A stretch of DNA of 64,000 bases from Cyclospora cayetanensis (lineage: Eukaryota > Apicomplexa > Conoidasida > Eucoccidiorida > Eimeriidae). The notes beneath the pieces were generated by a model. That model was not told where the DNA came from, searched no databases, and saw only the letters and a list, made by a program, of their open reading frames with translations. This document shows positions 29,732 to 51,500 of this stretch, one piece after another. The stretch covers positions 1 to 64,000 of the forward strand of contig NW_020312128.1 of NCBI RefSeq assembly GCF_002999335.1, written 5' to 3'. Made by a program: the position numbers and the translations under genes. The stretch's first letter is position 1, and each line of letters opens with the position of its first letter.

Positions 29732-30792
29732 TCACAGTGTGCTACGACTGTTTGTACCCCCATTAGGAATGCCTGATGAGCTACTAATGGAGCAACTCTC
29801 TGCACTTTCTGAGGAGTTGCTGTTTGAGTGGCGTATTCGATTCTGCTGGGTTTCCAGCTGAACAGAAGCCTGATCTACTGGAGAGCAGCTTGCTGATGAC
29901 GATGAGCTACTGCAGTCATTTGATGAGTTGGTAGCAGAGAAGCTGCTTGTGGTGCCGCTGGACGATTGTCTGCTGGAATGATGCTGAGAAAAGCTTCCTT
30001 GTATGGGCGTGAGCCCATTGTTGAGCGTAGTCACCATGTTATGATTGCCACGACTGCGAATGTCTTCGCGTCTACTTTGACCTCTCGTGCCTTCGCTCGT
30101 CCGGCTGCTACTGCTGCTGCTACTCCCGCTGCTCTTGCTAGCACTAGTTCCGCTCATGCTCTCTCTAATAGCCCGGTTATTGCTCATGCTGACCTCTTCG
30201 CCGGATTCGCTCGTGCTTTCGGCCACACGCTCTCCAGATGTAAGGCGATCAAGCAGCGAGCAATTTTTTGCCATAGGCTTGGAGCCTGCAATCAACTTAG
30301 GGGGAGCACTGTAGGAACCACTACTAGACCGGCTCTCAAAAGACTGGGCATGCAAAGTTGACGGGTTTGAAGACTTCCTGATTGACGTCACTATCGTTTC
30401 TGAGGAGGTCTGGGATGCCGTTCTGCTGACATATTCTTCGCTAGAGTCTGTCTCGTCGCTGCTACTCGTTTCGGTATTGCTGGTTTCCTCTGTACTGCTT
30501 TTCTGACTGCTGGTTCCTTCTCGGTGGCTAGTATCGCTTCTGCTGGATGCGCTACTTTGCTGCAGTACTGCAAAGTCCTGTGACGAGTTCGCTGTACTTT
30601 TTCCATCACTGTTGTAGCTACTGGCTGCCTCTTCTGTGCCCCTACTCTGAAGAGACAGGTTGCTGGAAGCGGCTTGCATACTGCTACAGGCTTGCGCCAG
30701 TAGTTTTAGATTCGCAAGTGTTGTCCGCAGGAATGAGCCCTCAGCGAGCGACTCGATGATACATTCGATGCTTGACAAGGTGGGCCCACGTG
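29732..30792 (-). other. Serine-rich C-terminal exon
   Basis: The largest exon of the coiled-coil region starts after a pyrimidine-rich acceptor (GTGTTCGCAG) and runs to a TGA. After about 45 ordinary helical residues (SSIECIIESLAEGSF and following) the protein becomes roughly 40% serine with threonine, glutamate and glycine, including short pure serine runs. The serine codons are mixed (AGC, AGT, TCN), so this is a compositionally biased protein rather than a simple triplet expansion. Such tails are usually disordered and often phosphorylated. The opposite strand shows leucine- and alanine-rich open frames that are only shadows of it. Confidence 0.7.
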
Positions 30793-33700
30793 CTGCGAAC
30801 ACAAATGCAAGGTAAGCTGTCGCTCCAAAGATCCCACACTGTACTTGGCAGAGCAAAGCTGTTGGTTTCTTCCATGGGCTCCAAAATATGGAGGCTAGTT
30901 CATTGCCTTTCCGCAGATACTGCGTACAAGCCTACAAGCCTACCAGTAATGCTTGTGGACCTCTCATATAGTTCGTATGACCCATTATCAGCTTCTTCTT
31001 CAACGATCTTCCAGATTATAGGGTGGCTCATGTCTAGTAACTCTTTTCTTCCCATCTTCCATGCCCTACAAGAGTGACAACATGCACTGCAACCCCATTC
31101 AAAATCTCCGGCAAGGATATTGCTAGGCACATCAGGCGGTTTGTGCAGCTTTCCGCATGCGAAAAGGGAGATTGTGACACACTTCGCCTGGTTTTCCTTT
31201 TGCGGTGATGACTGCGGGTAGCCTATGCTCAGTTTCGCTAACTTCTTCCGGGATTTCTAGAGACAAACACACAGGTAAGTCACATCGCAAGAAACAAAGC
31301 TCTGTGATTTAGAAGATGTGTTCTTTGCCAGTAAATCCAGCAGAGCACCGTTAGGATGAAGTAATAGTGTCACTTCACACAATTGTATAGGCTGTTCCAA
31401 TGCCAAGCATTATTTGGACCGTTACTACAGGATTGCACTCTTACTAGAGCTTTTATCCCCGCAGCCGGACTATTCCGGATGCCACATGTGCCCTTGCCCT
31501 GGCGTCGCTCAGTACGTTTTCCCGCTTTCCGCTTCATGACTAAACGCTGGCGATCTTTTTCCTCCCTCTGAGCCTGTGTTATTGCATTGATAAACCTATC
31601 CAAATGTGTGGAGAATGCATTGGCGCTTTTTCGCCATTCACTTCCATTAGCAAGTAGAGTACTTGCCCGGCTTCCAGACCTTATCCGACTTTGCCATTCT
31701 GCAACAAGCTTTTGTGGAATATCTTTTGAGGGGGTACCAGCGGGATGTGGGTCAGATGCAACTATGCGAAGTGTGGAGCATGTCCCGATGTCTTGACATG
31801 CAGCCGGCTTCACCGGTGTCCGTTGAGGCGTCTGGTGTACCGTGCACACAGAATGCTCATGGCAGCTTAATTCTGTGTACCGTCATTGCTCAACGTTAGA
31901 ATCTCTTGCCTTGTGCAGCTAGCTCCCTTAGGTATGAAACGGATAAAGCAGAATGACCTGCTTTAGTATATGCGGATACTTTCATCACCTTTTGGGTTGT
32001 GGCTTGTTCGCTTGTGTTAGTGTTGCCGTCGATCACCAGCTGTGTTGACATAGAAGCTCACAAATCCACTATGTGTTTCCATCCACTTTGTAAAAAACTG
32101 TGGAGCACTTTGACACCTTTGAGGCCACATGAGTCCTGTTGCAACTAACCTGAGCAAGCTCTGATTGATGCCTCTCCTTCAAGTGCTCTATTTCTCTCCC
32201 TCCATCTATCATCACCTGTAGTGCATCAGGAAACTGCAGTCAGATGTTCTCTCAGGTGTCTAGGGAGTTACTACTACTCTTTGGGGTATTGCAATTCATT
32301 TGCTTATCGATGTAGTGATGAGCTCGAATATCACCTGTGCTAGTCTTGAGGATGTAAGTTTTTCGATTTGATGCTATATACAAAGCACAGACGACCATAG
32401 GAACAAAGTCGCAGTCACACATGTGGCTCCTGAGAAGAGAAGACTGATCAACGGAGATTAATCTGGAATCACACATTTAACTTGGCTTGGGGTTACCCCT
32501 TTTTCGTACACGAGCATCCTCCGACATCTGTTGCCTTGCAACCGCAGCAAGTTCATCAGTACGCGATTCTTTGCCGAAGCTTTCGTTTGAAGGAAAACCG
32601 CAACGCACGATGCATTTGAGTATGCAGAACACAGCCAAAGAATCATTCGCCTCACATAAGAGTGTTTAGCGGCAGGCAGTTTCCATGCCGATGCTCAGCT
32701 ACGCAGACATAGGTTCCTCACTGAAGCTTATCTTCTGTCTTCTGCTGTGCTTCGCGGCGTATGTATTCCGTCAGCAGAACATGATGAAGATTATGCAGCT
32801 GCTGCAGGTCTTCAAGCTCAGCTTTGTGAAAGCTAAGTAGTAACTGCAGGTAGGGCATTGCGAAGTGTATCAACTTTTTGTAACTACCACGAGCACGATA
32901 AGTTGCATTAGCGGTGAGCATATAAAGGCCCAATAACACTGCATGACACTGTTTAAAAATAGCTGAAGTTTTCTTTTGTGAAGACCATCTTGGGCATGCT
33001 TCTCATCAGTCGGTGAATCAGCAGTTGGCGCTTCTTAGATTAAGATTGGGGTTAAGATGGAATTGAACCTCTTTCTTAAATTCGGTTCTGTCAAAAAATT
33101 CCGGCTGATCGCCCTGTAGTTCTTCAAATATCTCAATCCTCGATAGCTACAGGCACATAAGTAATTGGCCACACACGAAGGACCTCTGTGCAAAACGGTG
33201 TTTCCATCACATGGTAGCTGGGCTTTTGTGTGCGTCTACCAGGCCTACTTTCCACTGAGTCTCTAGCAGCAGCCGTTGGTTTTGAAGTTCTTGTTCAATG
33301 CGTTCGGTGCAATGAGACAATATACGCTGTCGCCTGTCGTCAGTTGCGGCCTTCACCTGGAGCTTAGAGGCATCCTTTGGTCACCAAGCACACAACAGTG
33401 ACCGTCGACGTCTCTATTTGGCTGCACTACCTCAAAGTATCGTTGGCACTTGGCTGGGGAGCAAACCTACCGCTTGCACGCAGGCTTAGGAAAGCTTTTT
33501 ACAGTGTAGCCATTGGATCAATAGCTCTAAACGAGCTCAAGATGGCTACAGTGGTTTTGAAGCAGAGTCGAATCGAGATTTTAGCGAATGAAATCTATAC
33601 GGTTACTTGCTTAGCCACAGAAAGTAGCGACACCATGTAGTGCTGTGGCAACAATTATCAAACTGCTGCTTCGACAGGGCTTCCACCTTATCGTAATATT

Positions 33701-36700
33701 GTATGTAGTTATGAATTAATTCGGCTTCCTAGACTATCTGCTTGTCTGAGAGTAAAAAGATTCGTCAAGATCGTACCTCTAAAAGGGTTATTTGCTTTTC
33801 TATAGGGTCAGCCTCCTTTTCAATCGTATTCAGTGCCTCTGAGAAATTCAACATATGAACCCAGAGACTCGGGGTTTTCAGATGTGGCTTTGAGCTTTCT
33901 GAAGAGGGTGGTGGCAAGAGTATCACTGGCTAGTGAGCTCTGCTGCTCTTAAAGTTTGTACCAATATCTTCACAGGCATTTTCCTAAAAACGCAATGACA
34001 TTCGCAGCCATGCGATACTTCAGGATGGTGTATGCTCTGCTAGCAAGTTGTGCGTAACGGTACGTACATGCATATTAGCAATCCAAACCAGTCTCAGTTA
34101 AAGCTGAGTAGCTTACTGCCTGTTTCCTGAGGGCCAATAACTTATCTCTCAAGGGATGCGTATTCAATGATCTCTCTTTTTCAGCTTCCTGCAATAAAAG
34201 ACATCGCGCGACTTGATTGCGCCGTATGTTTTCATGTGCATCAAAAAAACACGCTCCAGAGAATCAGCCACTCTGTGCACAAGTTAGTAGTTACGCAGGT
34301 TCACAACGATGTGCAGCCTCGTGGTGGGCTTTAAAGATACATTTATCTTGTATTGAATTGCCGAGAGTTCTTCTGCCTGCTTTTGCTTGAGCTCATGAAT
34401 GCGATCACTGTTGGTCTCCTCTGTAGACTCGTAGTACTCCCTAGCGTGCCACCTGCAGGTTATCGTGAGTTACAGGCGCTCCTACTGCACATTTCATGCT
34501 GGAGGTGGTACCTTACGTGTCTAAAAGTTGTTGAGAAAACAAGAAATCCATTTCCACCAGCGCTCGTGCACACATTTCTTAACTTGGTAAGTTAAAAAGG
34601 CCCACCGAGGTTCCCTGCTACTTGTTGCACCAAGAAACAGTTTCATCACTGCTCGTTGATGTAAAGTAGCAGCCATCCATTCGGCTTCCCATTCTTGTGG
34701 AAAGCTGCCACGGAACGTTTCATCTGCCTAAAGGAAGGAACAAAATCAACACAGCAGGTTTTGCTCTGGTGACTTTCAGGCCGCGATTTTTTCTAATGCT
34801 CATACGCACTTGACGACATTTGCATACCAGCTGTAACTTCTCTCGGCGCGTGGAAGTTTGGAGCAAAGAGTCTTCAAGCTGCTTCGACCAGGTATTTACA
34901 AGTGCATGGACAAATTCTGCCCATTGCGCAATACTGCTCTCTAGAAGAGCTTGACGTTCATGGATTGGCACTAAGGGTGGAGCAATTACTGGTGAGAGTC
35001 TGGCCAGCATGTAGCAGAATGCATTTTCCTGTTCCTTTGACCTCTTAGCTGTTAAGTTATCGGCGAAATCAATTGTCGAAACCTCATCGGACCATTTTTG
35101 ACGCAGCTTATTAAGTAGCACGAAAAATTGCTGATCACTTATTTGGCAAGTCAGCAGGTGCATCTCGGAATGCTGCCGGTTTACGGCATTGCGTTTTGCG
35201 ATGTACTGCGACAAAGACAACCAACGCATTCAAAGCCTACTTATCAGCAAAGCTGAGTTGACAACATGCACAGGGCCACTTTGGTGCGTGGTGAAACGTT
35301 GCCTGCGTCTGTGTGAACGGCTCAGGACTGCACTGGCAGTGTCAGCCGCATCCAGGTTCATATTCCGAACGCACCTGCCGTTCTGTCCACAAGACGCATT
35401 GCTTCCGTGCCTGTTGCTCGACGCTGATACGATTCAGTAGCAGTTGCTTCCTGTGTTCACATCGTTTTGCGTGCTCGGCCTCCCTGAACTTGCTTTGTTC
35501 GAGCATCAGTGCATCCATATCCTGTACCTGCCTTGAAGATTCAGCCTATGCAGCACAATCCATACTAGAGTGTGCTACTATGCTCAAGCCATTTTAGCGG
35601 CTTAACAGACTTTCTATTGGAATGGCACGTGCAATCAACCTACATTCAATGATTCGATGGCGTTTGCTAGCTCTGCTTCCGTCCAAAGCCATGATGGTTC
35701 TGCCTTTGCCTGAAACAATCCAAATTCGAAAGTATGTGGCAGAAGCTAAAACAAAAAGCTTTCACATTATGATGCCACCGGATTCTTAAGGAAATTTGTT
35801 GTGCCTTGTAATGCCGCTGCTTTAATCAAGCTCTTACATATGCTATTTGAGACACAAGGCGATCACGCTCATCCTCAATAAATTGGTGCCTTATTCGTTC
35901 AATAAACAAGTTGTCGTGAGCAGCATTTATTCCAGTTGCGACCTCTAGGTTTTGTACAGAAATTTTGGTGCTAAAGGAGCCTTGCCACTCCTCGTACTCA
36001 TTCAGAACCCTGCAATCAGCAGGATTTGCATGCACAAAGTTGGCCTGTGGGGCGTCTTTTCTCTAATCGAGGAGGCTGCGCTACTATTGACTCACGTATG
36101 CAGGCGTGGAGCAAGCATACAATCATTTTGCTGGAACGTGTTGCATGGTTCATATTAATCTCATGCCGGTGTTTCGACTTACTGTTGCTGCTGCGCTCTC
36201 AAAAAATCGATAATTCGAGTAAACTCCTCTTCCTCCAGCTCGGCGGACCGTAGGAGAGACGTACGACAATTCCTGACCTCTTCGATCGCTTTGATGTATG
36301 CTTCATCATGGGCTAAAGTTAATGCATGAGCGAGTGTCCCATATGTAGCTCGAGTGTTTCTATTGAGCACGTCGAGGCACTGCTGTAGCTCGATTGCAAC
36401 TGTAACCGGATCTGACGTTTCCAGAAGAATCTGGTCAAAATGATGAGGGCAGCGAACTTCAATACCGTTTCATCACTGCCGTGATTGTTTAAAACATGAG
36501 GGTGCTCCACAGCAATTTCCCTTTAGGTGAAATAACAAACGGATAACTGCGAAGAGGACCAAGCGTCCTGCAGCTCACCTTCAACTTCGCTAGGTAATCT
36601 TCAATCTCAATCATTATCCGAGCACGGAAGCGTCTTAAGTGCTACAGACGGATGTTACACATGTTCAACTGGTTTCCAAAATGGTGTCACAATACATATG

Positions 36701-39338
36701 CAGCTAGACCCTAGTAAGCAGTAGAGTCTAAGAGGGCAATCCAGCATGCACATCAAAAGCTTACCTGGTGCCTAGTCTTTTCCAGCTTGGTTTGAGCATT
36801 TAAAAGGCAAGTGAGCTCGCTGGAGACTATTTTCAGCTTTAGGTCGTAGCTCAGGACAGCGCTGTTGTGTTCCGCCTGTGCGATTGCTTTTGCTATGCTA
36901 AACCGTTTTCCAGTCAGTTGCAGGCACAGGGCGCAACTCTTGTTTAATGTGGCTTTAAGGTCAGCTTGTGCAGTTTGTTGCTCGAGGGTAACTCTCTTTA
37001 GTTGCTGCAATTGGGACAGACGCGTCAGATGTGGCACTACCATGCGATCTAACGACTGGCATGTACTTTACCTAAGGGCATTTACAATCGGCACCAGGAC
37101 TCACTGGATCAGTTTCAGCTTGACATTCTTCAGATAGCTCATCAGCTGAATCACTCGCTAGATACGAACGACTCAGGCAGTCGTTCCTTGCTCGTTCTAC
37201 CATAAGCCGTCGTTCCAGCTCGTATCTGCAGGCTCAACATGAGGAGGGCCTTGTAAGGATTCCTCGGGATCCCAAACAAAACAGAGCAGCTATTCGTCTA
37301 TATTCTAATTGGTGTGGTAGCTTGCAGGCAGCCACTTATGAACAGCCATATACGAATAATAACCATGAGGAGTCTCAGCGCTACAATGTGTCTGCATGCT
37401 TTACCTGTAAGCTAGCTGCTCTTGATTTATTTGGGCAAGGGCAGAATGGTAGGCTGTTTGGTTAGCCGCTTGGGCAGCTTCGCATTGGAAGTAAATACTC
37501 TGCTCTACATTTGCAAGATCCTGAATGTAGTAATAATCAATACGGCGGCTACTGCATACTAGGATTCCTTTACAGTCGAAGTATGCTTCGGTGTGGTACC
37601 CATGGGCACCTTTTCAACCAGACGACATCAGTCCTCACTTGTTTGCCTTCTTCTACGGACTTTCGGCACTGGGCCACCAGGTCCTCAACAGAATGCTTAA
37701 TCACAGTCGTTCGCTGACGTAACATCGCTTCTACTTCTTGTTCGGCTGCTTTCTCTTTTTCCGCGAATTCCTGATAATATCAAGTAGAGGCTAGAAGGAC
37801 AGCTTCTCAACAAAACGATCAGAAAGGTGTCTTAGAGTCAATCAGGCTGCTTTTATTTACTAGAAAGCTGTAAAAGGCAGCTTTGAGATGGAAAAATCCC
37901 GGACTAGCAACGGGAGCCACCCAGTCACCAGCAGGCCACACCATCACATCTAACCTTATACATGCTTTCAGCAGTATCCACGAACTGTTTCTGGATTATT
38001 GGAAGCGTGGTGATATTTCTCATAGACAAGGCTTTTTCGTAGCTTTTCCTTGTATTACAAAAAAGAGTAAATATTCCTTCTTGGAGCGTTGCCAGGCCAT
38101 TGCTTATTTGTCCAAACTGCTGTAGCAGCAGTGAGTCCATTTCTTTTTGCTTGGGAAATCACAAACAGTTTCACAGTGCTTCATACTTGTACAAGTGCCC
38201 TTTGTACTTTGCTCGTTGGTTGAAAATCAAGATTTGATGAATGCTGGTAACGATACTGTATGTTTTGGAGGACATTCAACCCTTGGTTTTGAGTTACGGG
38301 CTTTGTCTATCTGGTCTGAAGGTTGCACAAGGACCAAGCAAGAATCGCCGAACCTCGTGGGCAGCGATTGCGTTGCTTTTATCCACAAGCGTTCCCAGCG
38401 CATTCTCAATAAAGCGTCTTCTCTCACAGAGCTCGCTGCGTGTCGAGGCCAAAGTCGCCTAACCGCAAGAAAGAGCAGGGCCACAACCACTTGGTTATTG
38501 CACGAAATGCGTTACACGTAGAGCACTATTAATGCAAGCTCGCTCACTTCTGGTTTTAGCCCATCGGTAGCAGAAATGCAAATACTGGCTGCCTGAGAAC
38601 AGTCTCATGACGTGAAAAACGTATACTAGTGATCCAGGTAGGACGTGTAAAAAGCCAGCACCCCGAGCCCCATTAACCATTAAATTTAAATTTTCGTTGG
38701 GATGAAGGTATAGAGAAATCCGTATAAACAGGCTAAACAAACAAAGATTTACCTTGAGCGTTTCTTGAAGACTATTCTCGTATGCTGGCAGATCACCAGG
38801 TGTATGGTACAGTACTCCAGTAAGCTGGACCTCCAACTTTCCCGGCACCTGTTTTGCCGCTTCCACTGCTTTTAGGTGATGCAGTGCTTGTGTTGTTGCA
38901 GCACTCTGCTCTACTCCGAGCGCAGCTGCAAATGATTCTGCAGTGACATCAGCAATTTCATGAAATCTTGGGGACGTATCATGAGCGTTTGGCTCAGCTG
39001 AACGAGATCCTAAATGTACGTTGAGCGTCAAGGAGGTGAGGCCGTCGTTTCGCTGTATCTAGAAAACGCTCAGAGCACAAGCACACTATCGAACTGTACA
39101 TGTACAAGCCAATGGGTAAATCACAACGAATAGGAGAAACAACTGTATTAACATAGCTAGTCCTACAAGGTACAATTGGGACCTGCGTCAATGGCTTCAT
39201 ACGCTCCATTTCGGCCTCCTTCATAGCCTCGCATGCCCTCCGTACAGCTTCTTCGAGCGTTCCCTTGCGGAGCAGCATTGCGTTTTTCAGAGAAACCAAC
39301 TTTTCGCTTAGCTCCGCATTTTCGACTTCAGCCATTTC
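29732..39338 (-). CDS. Coiled-coil, serine-rich multi-exon region (likely cytoplasmic part of the giant gene)
   Basis: More than twenty short exons encode charged, helical, glutamine/glutamate-rich sequence of coiled-coil type. The better-defined ones are 39,167-39,338; 38,753-38,997; 37,955-38,119; 37,639-37,770; 37,405-37,520; 37,105-37,225; 36,765-37,004; 36,579-36,641; 36,183-36,430; 35,838-36,009; 35,644-35,709; 35,375-35,545; 34,810-35,205 and 34,584-34,727. Weaker ones follow near 34,350-34,455, 34,145-34,190, 33,780-33,885, 33,645-33,720, 33,250-33,355, 33,050-33,140, 32,735-32,855, 32,510-32,590, 32,151-32,219, 31,900-31,950, 31,455-31,850 and 30,920-31,100. The last exon (29,732-30,792) is serine-rich. 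If a separate gene, its start would be the ATG at 39,335 (MAEVENAELSEKL). However, that exon opens with a phase-0 acceptor (GAATAG before GAA ATG), which fits the preceding membrane-protein exon, so I favour one gene. Function is unknown; a structural or scaffold role beneath the membrane is inference. Confidence 0.7.
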
Positions 39339-39587: not shown

Positions 39588-42500
39588 CTTCTTTTCCGAT
39601 GCCTCAGTCAGAACTGGAAGCAATGCAGACTTTAAAGGCCCACCCATATCAAGTTCCAGCTCAATCAATGTATCCTGGTGCGCTCCCAGGAGTTGTAGTT
39701 TGCTGCCTAGAGTACCCATTGTTTCAAGCAGTTTGCAATATACTGCTTGGAAGGCACGGGGGTCCAAATCGGGAAAAGTGATTGTGCTCTCGCCTTCTGC
39801 GTGCTTTTTGCTTTTGCACCAAAGTATGGCTTCATGTAAGCTTTTCGGATGAATCTGTTGTCTGAAGAAGTAAAACCAAGGCCACCAGAACTCCGTGGTC
39901 TTGTTATTTTGCAGACAGATCGCAAGCCCTCATTTCCGGCCTATATCTCTGTCTGGGTGGTATAAGTTGTCTTGCACTGCCAGTAGTACAAATTACATTG
40001 ATTCACCATGACTTCTAAAGCGTCATCTGTCTCTAAATGGAGCCTTTCGTAAATGGTGTAGACTAAACTTACAGGCTTTCTTTGGAATGGTCTCCATGTT
40101 CAATTTCTTGAGGATTAGCAAACGTCCAGTACTTTAAGCGCACTTGGTATTGAGCCAGTAATATTGCAAGTACAAGTACCAGCAGAATTAGAAAAGTAAC
40201 ATAGATGGTGTTCCAGTCTGGAGGTCCATATAGAACTGCTGCAGGGAGCTTCAGCGGCAGTGTCGCAATTGATTCGTGTGTTGCTGTGTGCGGCAGGTTG
40301 ACAGTCATAGGGCCACACTGCGTCACTTGCTCTACGACATTAATAATGGTGATACGGTTAGTGCCACGGTTTGTTGCAAACACAGAAACTCCTGGAGCTG
40401 TGAATGTATAGCCAAAGAGCAAGAACGGAGCCCCCGATTCCATTTCTATTTGAAGTTTCCTGAATTCACGCCCACATCGTTGTGCTTCAAATTCTCTTAG
40501 CTCAATGAATGTGTCATTTACAAATCTAAGTTCCATGCTATGGGCCACAATTGCCCATTGGATAAGAGAAACCACCTACTTGAACTCGCCATCGTCGAAG
40601 ATGGGGTTTGTGTTCAGTAGAGAATCGTTGATGTGCACGGGGTACACTGGCTCGCTTCCAGGACTCAGTTGCCACAGGATAGATGAACCCACCAAAGTGC
40701 ATAGCAGAGGACTTTCGATAAACGGCACTTGATTTGTAGCTTGAACAAATTTAGCTACATTTTGCGCTGGCCGTCTCAGTTTTGATGTGTCCATACTGAT
40801 CACCGTGGATCTTTCAGCTACACTTAAGGACAATCGTTCACTCATAGCCTCCAGGAGCTCCTCGGGTACTCCGAAGTAGCCACGTGTGGTGCCATCTGGG
40901 GTACAACGCAAACACAGCAGTGGAGCGCTTATGGAGGCTTGTGCGTCACTGTTGCTGAGGGTCGTTGAGGCCTGTGTCAGGTTACCTTGAGCAGCTGCAA
41001 GGAAGATGACCGGGCACGAATCTTCATCGCACGATGGAGGGCCAAAAAGCACGGCAGAGCGCCCCTTTAGAGCCCCTATGCTGAAGCTTGTCCGAATGCT
41101 GCCGTTGCCACTTTTGACAAGTAGTGCCTTTCCGTCAGTAGAAAAAGTTTGCTGTTGCTCTCGGCAATTCTCGTCACACACATCAGTGACAGCAGGAAGA
41201 AAATTGCATGAGCACAGGCCGCTTTTTGGAATGTACGACCCACCCTTGGGCCCACAGAAATTTTGACAGAACTGGTTCGTGCTTTGGCACTGCCCAGTAT
41301 GGGTACGTATAGCGCCTCCGCCACATTCGGGATATTCCTGAACACCATAGTAAAACAGCAAGAGCATTGAAGCAATATAAGGAAAGAAGGGTAAATAATA
41401 TGAAGCCGGATAGAAAAAGTTCCTCCACAGCTACAGGCGTACCCAAATCTTATTCAGTCTTACCTTTGGAAGACACGGCTCCTCGCTGTCTTCGTGCGAA
41501 AAGTCGGTGCCTTCAGAATATGGATGACAGTGTGAGCACTCAAAATTGAAGGTATAGATGTACTGCAATGCAATAGGCCCTAAAGGGTCTGTGATTCTAG
41601 ACTGAATCGCGCTACTGAATACAGGAGACATGCTCTATTCGCAGCTACTCGAAAGAGTTGCAACAGTTTACTGAGTTTCATGTACCTGAGATGATATGTT
41701 CATAGCCGTTCTTACAGATACACGCTCCCGTGCTTGGCTGGTAAACTCTGTTTGCTCCCAAGCATTTGCATTCAAAGTCTCCGACTTCCGTAAACGAGCT
41801 GCCACCGCATGCTGTACAGCTACCCTGCCCCATTTTGTCAGTATAAGATCCTACCTGTGGAAGCCACAGCATAGCACTCCTTGCTTTAAGAGTTGTCCAT
41901 TTAGCAGCAAACCACACTCGCAAATATATATTGGGGCGTAAGTTCATTGACCTTTCTACTGCAGCGTTCTGGCGCTAGGGCCCGTTGATAAGCACCGGAG
42001 TAGTTGCAGGGCAAAATCTGTGTGTACTTATACAGGGCATTTCAAGCAATTTTCAATGGCTTCTTTTCCAGAATCTGGATTATATGTCCCGGCGGGGCAC
42101 GGAACCATGGTAGCTGAACCTTCTGGGCAGTAGTAACCAGGTGCGCAAGGTATCCCGCCGTCATCTTCTAAGGTCTTTGGATACCTAAGTAATGCATGCA
42201 CTCCCCACTGAATGAGCAAGATTGCTGCTGATGCCTGAGCATAATTTTGCTGAAGTCAATCATGCAACATCTAAGCAAGCTGCTCGTCTTGCATGAGACG
42301 CATACAGAGAGTCTAAAGTGACGAGAGTTGATATACTGCAGAAGAAGCTTTGCTTTCAGTGTACAGTTAATGCTGCCCTATTTCCACATAATATCGGGGT
42401 CTAGAAGATCGAAGCTAAATGCCGTGTTGATGATTTTGCAGTTGAGTTGGTTTAGCACCTTAGTCAAAGGCGACAGGAAAAAGCATGAAAGAAACCTACC

Positions 42501-48500: not shown

Positions 48501-51500
48501 GAAAACTATACTAGACCGCGTTTGGCCGTAAAGGCCACGAAAGCATAGGATTCAAGGCCAGTAACTCCTCACATGTGTTTTGTGGCGTCAGCAAGAAACA
48601 ACGTCGACTGCATGCTCGAAAATCAGGGCACACACCAAAATCTCAGATCAATAAACTGAGAGCAAACCAGAATATTCAAGAGTAATTGGCCTTCTGCTTT
48701 TCCTACCGATTGTAGGCTTCCAAATGTTAGAGCAACGATATAGCCCAGATTGTAATCAATTGCTGTTTCCTTCATGGTCCGTATCCGTGGTGGCTGAATT
48801 TGAATTATCTCCACATTCTCCCCGTCAGCCAAGATTATCTAGCACATAAGACGTAGAAAATAGCAAATGTGTACTTGAGCAATGCGGGTAGCTCTAGCAG
48901 CTAATATGGTCTCTAAGTAGCTTAAGAGTAAGGGAGCACATGGTGAATTAAAAAAACTGACAAGCCATAATTTACTGCCTGTAAGTGGATGAAGCAGAGC
49001 ACTGGCCAAACGTACTCTCCGGTTCCCCGTATCGGCTACGTAAAGCTTCTCATCGAGGGCAACAGCGACTGCATAAGGGGAGTTTAGCGTGATATTCGCT
49101 GCGGCAGCAAATAAGACGCCCGTGAATTGCAATTCACTCAAGCTTGTACTGTGTCAAATCGACGTCACTGACGGCAGTGAAGGGCAAAGCAAGGCTACTG
49201 TACCTGAAGATAATCCGCTTAAGACACTTTCAGGCAATGGGGGAAACCAAGCACTTTTGTACCTCATAGTGGTTCACCCGGTTCTACATAGGGGGCCTAC
49301 CAGGAGCTCCGCTTCCTATAACATCGGTCAGGCTCTTATTACTCAGTTTAATCGCAGAAATTTTGTTTGCGCCTGCTTGAGCAACGTAGAGCGTCTCGCC
49401 ATCTAGTGAGAGGCTTAATCCCCACGGTTCGCTTAAGCCGGTTTGGACATCGGTGACTCCAGAGTCTTCCAGGCTAATAGCAATGACCTTTCCATCTTCT
49501 GTATAGCCGGACAAAGGTGCAAGCTTCGTCCAGTGAAAGCTTACTATCATAAACGTGTGTCATGTAAGCTGTTGGACAGACTGTATGCTGTCAACAAGGG
49601 ATATCGCATCCCGCATCAGGCATGTTAAAATGCATCATCTTTGGGACAGCAACGTTGGGGTTGACAGCCTTAAAAGCTTAAGGGCAACGCTGCTTTAGCA
49701 TCTTGGGGGCCTGACCTGACAGTGATGCATACAATATGTTTCCGTCATTTGACACTGCAAGGCCTCCAGGCTTTTTAAGGCCAGTTTTAATCTTAGTTAC
49801 AAGCCCTAAGGGAAGAATCACAGTTCACACTTGTGTGAGCATGTCAATTTACTTGGGCAGGCTCTCTTTCCCTTGCCATCCATTCCCTGTATTTCCCCAA
49901 ATCAACTTCGAAGCACCCTATCTACGTGGCGCTCTCACGGAAAATATAAGCTCTCACCGCGCGGGGTAATGTTTGGTTAAATCACTTTAATCCATAGATA
50001 AAGATGACAGCTACATAAGGCAGCTTGAAAATGGAGGAGAAAATAGCCATACAAGCTGGAACTCGCTTACGTGCCTCAGAAAAGGTGTGCAAACTTTAGT
50101 GGCGGAATAACTGGCAGTCTACCTGTGGACAGGTGGATGGAGCTGATTCGTCCCTCTTGATACTCCGCCACTATGAGCTCGCCTCGAATATGGTTCACAG
50201 CGATTCCTGTCAGCTGACTAAACGTTGCTTCTGGCGCAGACAGTCCGTCACCAGCGGCCTTTGTATTACCGTTTCCTTTAAGTGTATCGACCAAAGGAGC
50301 TGCAAAACAACGTTGAGGGGACACGCGGCTTTTTCCTCCTCTCAAGGGTCTAGGCTAGCCCAGCGCCTTGGTAATAGCAGCTGCAACTATGAACACAGGA
50401 GACTCAAGAACTGTTCTTGCGGAGCTTAGTGTCTTAAAGGCAAGGATTGCGAACCAGTGTGGCAGTAATATCCTGCAGGACACGGGTATCCCTGATATTT
50501 TTCGGGGCACATCTCCCCAGACGTTGCAGCTTCAGGGCTGTGTGTTGAAGATCTCTGTTTGCAGATGTATCCACCCCGGCAGCGGCCAGTGGGCCATTCA
50601 AGAGCTTCGTTTGCACAATAATATCCAGAGGGGCATGGCGTAGGGAGCGTCGAGTTCTCGGGGCAATATTCGCCGTAAGTGCAAGCTGTAGGGGTTACAG
50701 ACCCTGTCCCATTAGCGCAGTAATATCCTGCAGACAGTGCAAAACTCAAGTGCTCACTCCAACAAAACCGATGACAATATGACGCAGGATGGGTGCTGTT
50801 TCTCCACGAAATATGCAAGATGACAATGCAAAGATGCAAGCAATGTTTATGACCGGGAGGAGTACGAGGAGCTTTTTGCGCCAGCTTCGACGGTGCTCCA
50901 CGAGTACACATTTAAAGGCAGAATGCTTTTGGTATATTCGCACGCCGACCTGCTGGGCAGGGAGTCATAGCAAGATCCCCCTGTGCCGATGTTCCAGGGG
51001 TGCTGCACAGTTGACCACCCAGACAGAGGTGGCAGCTCGCAGAGGAGATAGCACCTTGGGCTACGCCGTACGTCCCTTGCGGACAAGGAAACTGAAACTT
51101 ATGCTGAGTGCCGGCAGGGCAGAAAAAGCCTGCTGGACACGTTTTGGGAGCAGTCGAACCCGGTTCGCAGTACGATCCTGTAACAGGAAAAGATGTTCCA
51201 GACAACCCGATAAATCAGACACTAAAAATTTTCCCTGGTTTGAGTGTGGCTGGCTACAGCTGCGTTCAGCAAACCTTGTGGGCAGGTTAAACATATCGTC
51301 GCCCCCTTTTGCGGCTGGTATGTGCCGCTCTCGCATGGAATGGCGGTGTGAGTCCCTTCTGGACAGTAGTGCCCCTCAGCACAGAGCTTGGTGGGATCAA
51401 CAGGAGCCGCGCTTCCCTCTTCACAGAAGAATCCTGCAAGCACCCAGGGCGTCATGCTTGTCACCAGAGTGGAACTACTGCATCATGGTAGATTATGCAA

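Follow-up and report, generated by a model that had tools for sequence, protein, structure and literature searches.

The locus

The window analysed here is a stretch of 64,000 bases from Cyclospora cayetanensis, bases 1-64000 of contig NW_020312128.1 (labelled C93 where contigs must be told apart). Coordinates are window positions, and the gene is read on the minus strand. Its parts are listed in reading order; P numbers denote database proteins described below.

41464-64000, minus strand: GCC2/GCC3 (Ephrin_rec_like) ectodomain exons, from the gene finder and Pfam family PF07699; the 5' end of the gene lies outside the window
40580-41337, minus strand: juxtamembrane ectodomain exons; P0002 has 41337-40986 and 40895-40580, without the stretch between
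40073-40459, minus strand: transmembrane exon, phase 2/2, ending in YWTFANPQEIEHGDHSKES plus the CT of a split Leu codon
40067-40072, minus strand: GTAAGT donor lying over an in-frame TAA (40071-40069), read from the window letters
39588-39861, minus strand: first cytoplasmic exon, with ILWCKSK and DLDPRAFQAVY and no in-frame ATG before ETMG
34117-39338, minus strand: helical rod, 17 further exons of a hand-picked chain, 13 of which overlap a P0001 tblastn match
29736-34116, minus strand: rod end (provisional exons) and serine-rich tail, from the gene finder, P0001 and P0004

Elsewhere in the window, a separate gene of five exons is predicted at 21572-19431 on the minus strand. Its 635-codon open frame has no Pfam match at E ≤ 0.1.

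The splice junction

The original prediction, made from the letters of the window, held that the transmembrane exon ends in a consensus GTAAGT donor and that a phase-compatible acceptor lies at 39,861/39,862. Both elements are in place. The exon (40459-40073, 387 nt, phase 2 in and phase 2 out) ends in CCT directly before GTAAGT, with a donor score of 5.2. The acceptor before 39861, TTCTTCAG followed by ACAA, scores 6.9, is in phase with the donor after 40073, and leads into a frame that stays open beyond.

Read unspliced, the same exon runs into the TAA at 40071-40069, within the donor, to give a product whose tail ends in HSKESL. Because this in-frame stop overlaps the donor, a short-tailed protein is a rival to the fusion that is built into the locus. 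From the TAA to the acceptor exon there is a gap of 207 nt with four ATGs. One of these, at 39933, could begin a first coding exon of 17 nt that ends in phase 2 at a weak donor after 39917 (GTCTGC, score 2.1).

Fused proteins in the databases

All six distinct proteins that the database searches returned, from five species, read in frame over the junction, passing from ectodomain through transmembrane helix to helical rod:

P0001, Eimeria brunetti, 2261 aa: fused; 42% identical over 95% of the rod query
P0002, C. cayetanensis, 850 aa: fused
P0003, E. praecox, 930 aa: fused
P0004, C. cayetanensis, 3768 aa: fused
P0005, E. stiedai, 5647 aa: fused
P0006, E. flavescens, 6036 aa: fused

Three queries delivered this set. 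The rod query, against candidates of about 756-2406 aa chosen by an exact-word prefilter (7993 best scored), returned P0001, P0002, and P0003 at E ≤ 0.01; the part of the long model around the junction, against candidates of about 2320-7380 aa (6578 scored), returned P0004, P0005, and P0006; and P0006 itself, against candidates of about 3320-10560 aa (962 best scored), returned those same three only. Neither a stand-alone rod protein nor an orthologue from Toxoplasma or other Sarcocystidae appeared among these 7993 best, 6578, and 962 best candidates, limited as they were by length and exact words. Because of those two limits, the Sarcocystidae result is no evidence of absence.

P0002 and P0004 join exactly as predicted (SKESL-QQIHPKS). 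P0002 is 100% identical to the window over matches at 41854-41681 and 39860-39588, and the first cytoplasmic exon is 100% identical to P0002 and 58% to P0003. In the alignment of the six proteins' junction region, YWTF is conserved before the junction, the junction residues themselves vary, and conservation resumes about ten residues past it, with the block DLDPR[VA]FQAVY. The stretch from the junction to that block is free of Met in the window and in all six proteins. A cysteine motif, SILCCK or SVLCCK (ILCCK/VLCCK), follows the junction in three of the four Eimeria sequences; Cyclospora has ILWCK, and E. brunetti is without the LCCK stretch. The Eimeria sequences were compared as proteins alone, so the shared join is a protein-level one rather than a set of mapped exon borders.

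Entries for the fused gene include cyc_01966 and LOC113147307 (C. cayetanensis), Esti_005101 (E. stiedai), and Efla_006804 (E. flavescens). The E. brunetti and E. praecox entries are conserved hypothetical proteins, at which UniRef names begin "GCC2 and GCC3 domain-containing" and "ephrin type A/.. receptor". Four of the six models are incomplete, at one end or at both. The original prediction had also stated that no apicomplexan protein of this arrangement is described. For the literature this stands: no published description of the fused architecture was found among open-licence papers. For the databases it does not, the architecture being there already in proteins named hypothetical or uncharacterised.

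How the models were made governs how they may be read. P0004 probably comes from the 2016 C. cayetanensis gene set, built with AUGUSTUS, SNAP, and GeneMark-ES; a term search of that paper found neither RNA-seq nor a transcriptome mentioned (PMC4851813). P0005 and P0006 probably come from the rabbit Eimeria gene set, for which AUGUSTUS was trained on E. stiedae oocyst transcripts and combined with two ab initio predictors (PMC12659853). A predictor bias common to the fused models is possible. Since the gene sets with described methods are predictor-based, the agreement of six models speaks to conservation of the reading and is not transcript proof. At that level the predicted fusion of ectodomain to rod is supported by in-frame models from five species that join at the same place. 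The search in other coccidia likewise favours it, with all four Eimeria species fused and no separate rod returned within the length and word limits.

Ectodomain and membrane helix

Two PF07699 matches fall in the window, at 51243-51374 and 42016-42138 (32.7 and 28.1 bits, against a curated cut-off of 23.1), and they assign the ectodomain to the GCC2/GCC3 family; the second overruns its exon end and has one TAA inside. With the same profile, a piece of P0006 scores 45.4 bits and whole P0004 scores 21.0, under the cut-off of 23.1. The N-terminal portions of P0005 and P0006 map downward from 63940 and 63946, respectively. Residues 107-197 of P0005 map to C93 64919-64647, past the window edge, where there is an N-terminal exon.

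Among the cysteine-rich repeats, at about 50300-47000 of the window (placement by eye), sit an NHL stretch and an F5/8 type C-like module. The NHL stretch is a Pfam match in the P0004 ectodomain (E 3.7e-6); the F5/8 type C matches, in pieces of P0004 and P0006, are weak and under cut-off (E 0.007 and 0.13). In protein terms they come from P0004, up to about residue 990, and from a 133-aa piece.

Nearer the membrane, the juxtamembrane ectodomain is kept in P0001, P0002, and P0003, and P0005 and P0006 have its second part only. An AlphaFold model of this block from E. praecox has a mean pLDDT of 42.7; the transmembrane exon forms a helix in it, with two blocks at pLDDT 87 and 76. At that mean pLDDT it was dropped as a fold-search query.

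Five proteins were scanned for hydropathy, and each has a single strong hydrophobic helix, which in P0004 is TIYVTFLILLVLVLAILLA with a Kyte-Doolittle peak of 2.97; P0005 has a second, weak peak of 1.89 in its ectodomain. A hydropathy scan, used in place of a signal-peptide predictor, detected no N-terminal hydrophobic window above the 1.8 threshold in P0005 or P0006. In the four long-tailed proteins, cysteine makes up 5.33-7.81% of residues before the helix versus 0.97-1.62% after it. The topology, cysteine-rich part outside and the remainder within, is inferred from this one strong helix and the change in cysteine content across it.

The rod and the tail

From YWTF onward the four long-tailed proteins run for 1600-1754 residues. 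With the last 400 residues excluded, Glu, Lys, Arg, Gln, Leu, and Ala account for 55.3-57.5% of the post-helix tail in the four proteins. The last 400 residues are 23.5-32.8% serine, so that the serine-rich tail expected after the rod is indeed where the four longest proteins end. By our cut the rod itself measures roughly 1,100-1,250 residues.

Modelled with AlphaFold, 839 residues of the P0005 rod come out almost wholly helical; the model has low confidence (mean pLDDT 58.6, pTM 0.37) and served for helix content only. Hydrophobic periodicity was measured separately. Residues LIVMF recur with a period of 3.64-3.68 in the mean spectrum of all four proteins (P0001, P0004, P0005, and P0006), and a wider residue set gives 3.60-3.68; synthetic controls gave 3.50 for a heptad and 3.66 for a hendecad. 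Among single windows (95-109 per protein, LIVMF), 36-56 peak at 3.56-3.72 and 7-15 at 3.45-3.55. Against block shuffles, z at 3.67 is 6.4-11.2 for the rods (P0004 is slightly higher at 3.60) and -0.8 to 1.6 for ectodomain controls, two of which reach 3.5 at period 3.30. The 3.5 period of a canonical heptad coiled coil is not what the rod displays. Predicted as a coiled coil, the rod is thus helical as expected, but its period of about 3.66 is not the classical one. Given that period, "hendecad-like helical rod" is a more exact label than "coiled coil", although ordinary amphipathic helices (3.6) may also fit.

The rod has no Pfam match in four of four members, nor any match among PDB sequences. 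A fold search of the PDB with the P0005 rod model listed 360 matches at E ≤ 10, none of which reached E ≤ 0.001; the best had E 0.1.

Exon chain and gene finders

From 39861 to 34117, 18 hand-picked exons join stop-free, with donors scoring 2.4-7.3 and acceptors 1.7-8.0. P0002 joins exons 2 and 3 differently (39183/39058), in a frame that is open there too, and several rod exons differ among P0002, P0004, and the hand-picked chain. Exon borders between 34,117 and 30,792 are provisional. In that stretch, overlapping helical open frames occur in different frames at 33983-32722, parts of which the database models omit. Irregular rod frames had been suspected near 33,983-33,777 and 33,146-32,721; the first is crossed by ordinary P0004 exons (ENACEDI-E-ALNTIE), and so we do not claim a lesion. 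The last large exon (by P0004, 30792-29736; broken at 30082 by the finder) holds the serine-rich tail; both P0004 and this exon end in NSRSTL. P0001 residues 1890-2248 match 30793-29741 with an E value of 2.7e-26, which flatters, because low-complexity sequence was left unmasked.

Training of the gene finder used the window plus twenty 10-kb pieces, and a mixed version added the 18 rod exons. Trained without those hand-picked exons, the finder left both the transmembrane exon and the rod uncalled, and in a junction test it preferred a split to a fused gene by 1.0 nat, with the rod chain in neither path. The mixed finder, unforced, called 28 exons between 39861 and 29784 and skipped the transmembrane exon with the frame kept. 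Of these exons, 18 were its own training exons, some with other borders; since the rod exons were training data, its rod call is no independent support. With the transmembrane exon fixed, a forced split fell 15.6 nats below the fused model, and 33.9 nats below it when ATG 39933 was also barred. Start and stop penalties set by us account for 13 nats of the gap, which makes the split-versus-fused score weak evidence. Sequence statistics by themselves do not decide between the fused and the split model.

A second gene in Cyclospora

Searched against its own genome (43.2 Mb, 392 contigs), P0001 gave 23 matches: 17 on C93 and 6 on a second contig, C375. There, a gene at C375:33251-41500 has the juxtamembrane block followed by helical exons with DPRVFIAV. 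On our reading its transmembrane exon is 36960-37340, in phase 2/2; the finder's exon ends at 37031, before the helix. The helical exons after it were called unforced by the mixed gene finder, and the called exons from 37420 on comprise 644 residues with 1.9% Cys, 3.6% Pro plus Gly, and a hydrophobic period of 3.62. In-frame ATGs open the first rod exon, making a separate start possible.

A scan of 539,914 codons for the motif DPR[VA]F.AV, which was picked after both occurrences were known, gave two hits: one in the first cytoplasmic exon of the window, the other at the corresponding position in C375. A rod profile was also tried as a route to homology between the two rods and found no match; its best hit (E 0.75) was serine-rich sequence elsewhere (4357 six-frame pieces, 21 loci). 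The C375 gene is likely a paralogue sharing the same layout; its rod has just a short motif in common with that of the window.

Genome-wide, PF07699 has at least 18 matches on seven contigs (C93, C363, C326, C342, C329, C375, and C223). Some of the other loci may be CRMP genes.

Alternative readings

Two adjacent same-strand genes would also account for the locus: a short-tailed surface protein ending in HSKESL, and a cytosolic helical protein starting at ATG 39933 or downstream. The TAA in frame inside the donor provides the stop, ATG 39933 with the phase-2 donor after 39917 makes a legal start, and the finder without hand-picked rod exons preferred the TAA ending by its 1.0 nat; type I proteins, moreover, usually have short cytoplasmic tails. 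Yet the second gene would depend on the weak GTCTGC donor (2.1) within a gap of 207 nt, what follows the join is conserved and offers no Met, six models from five species share the join point, and the length- and word-limited candidates contained no stand-alone rod. We consider two genes improbable. Regulated splicing into several products overlaps with the fused reading and is somewhat less unlikely, though still doubtful: retaining the intron would give a short tail and removing it the fused protein, and a third form might lack the transmembrane exon. Besides the overlap of stop and donor, it draws on the symmetry of the transmembrane exon (387 nt, 2/2), repeated in C375 by our reading (36960-37340), so that skipping would preserve the frame, as it did when the unforced finder skipped this exon. 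However, that skip may just reflect low scores of hydrophobic codons, and all six database models join the transmembrane exon to the rod.

A divergent CRMP acting in rhoptry secretion is the least probable reading, and we give it very little weight. The CRMPs (CRMPA and CRMPB of Toxoplasma, CRMP1-4 of Plasmodium, BboGDP of Babesia) are likewise very large, with GCC2/GCC3 or other cysteine-rich regions; CRMPb carries the annotation GCC2 and GCC3 domain-containing (PMC11321763), and the giant size and GCC2/GCC3 repeats found here recall the Toxoplasma CRMPs. A coil coil is named among the SMART domains of selected CRMPs in the Figure 1 legend of PMC9815656. Against this stands the transmembrane count. 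The T. gondii CRMPs have nine transmembrane domains (PMC9815656, PMC9670195), and BboGDP has eight segments in two table rows, versus one here and a long helical rod; with a single strong helix, the protein is not a CRMP by that count. CRMPs also have two EGF-like domains in their conserved core, and CRMPA a Kringle; a Pfam scan that covered P0004 and four pieces (three of P0006, one of P0004) showed neither type.

A proposed giant linker across the membrane

The fused reading, by contrast with these three, is one that we hold with considerable confidence, judged from sequence: a single gene, reaching from at least 64.9 kb down to 29736 on the minus strand, very probably encodes a giant type I membrane protein with an intracellular rod. 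Outside the cell would lie an N-terminal region, dozens of GCC2/GCC3 repeats, an inserted NHL stretch, perhaps an F5/8C-like module, and the juxtamembrane block; then one transmembrane helix; and inside, a juxtamembrane Cys motif, the helical rod, and the serine-rich tail.

How such a protein may work can be sketched. The ectodomain would bind or space some outside structure. Rod and tail would occupy the thin layer of cytoplasm beneath the plasma membrane and anchor the protein there, for example to the inner membrane complex, to which the rod is long enough that it could span, or to the subpellicular network. Just past the junction, the Cys pair that three of the four Eimeria proteins carry (Cyclospora has a single Cys) may be lipidated, holding the base of the rod at the membrane. 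An adhesive stalk might in this way be tied to the subpellicular cytoskeleton, as originally suggested. Integrin-talin and spectrin-type linkers offer an analogy: a surface ectodomain, one membrane helix, and a long inner rod. The likeness is one of layout; no similarity to them was found, the rod being without Pfam or PDB-sequence match and its best fold match having E 0.1 with a low-confidence model.

A wider proposal is possible, and we advance it tentatively, as less likely than not to hold in full: a hitherto undescribed eimeriid family of giant trans-membrane linkers, with at least two Cyclospora paralogues, a host-facing stalk, a hendecad rod maybe reaching the inner membrane complex, and a stop-overlapping donor that possibly switches the rod by stage.

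Implications

To our knowledge, apicomplexan surface adhesins have short tails and depend on adaptor proteins for their connection to the motor or cytoskeleton. Several thousand residues outside the cell and some 1,600-1,750 inside would, if the fused reading is right, make a direct physical connection in one protein. Its rod is conserved in five species and is without Pfam, PDB-sequence, or significant fold match. Were the splice regulated, it would be a simple on/off switch for the intracellular domain. C. cayetanensis is a human pathogen that cannot be cultured, and Eimeria is tractable; as the gene is present in tractable Eimeria too, its localisation is directly testable. If true, the linker would provide a new handle on pellicle or apical membrane organisation in coccidian zoites.
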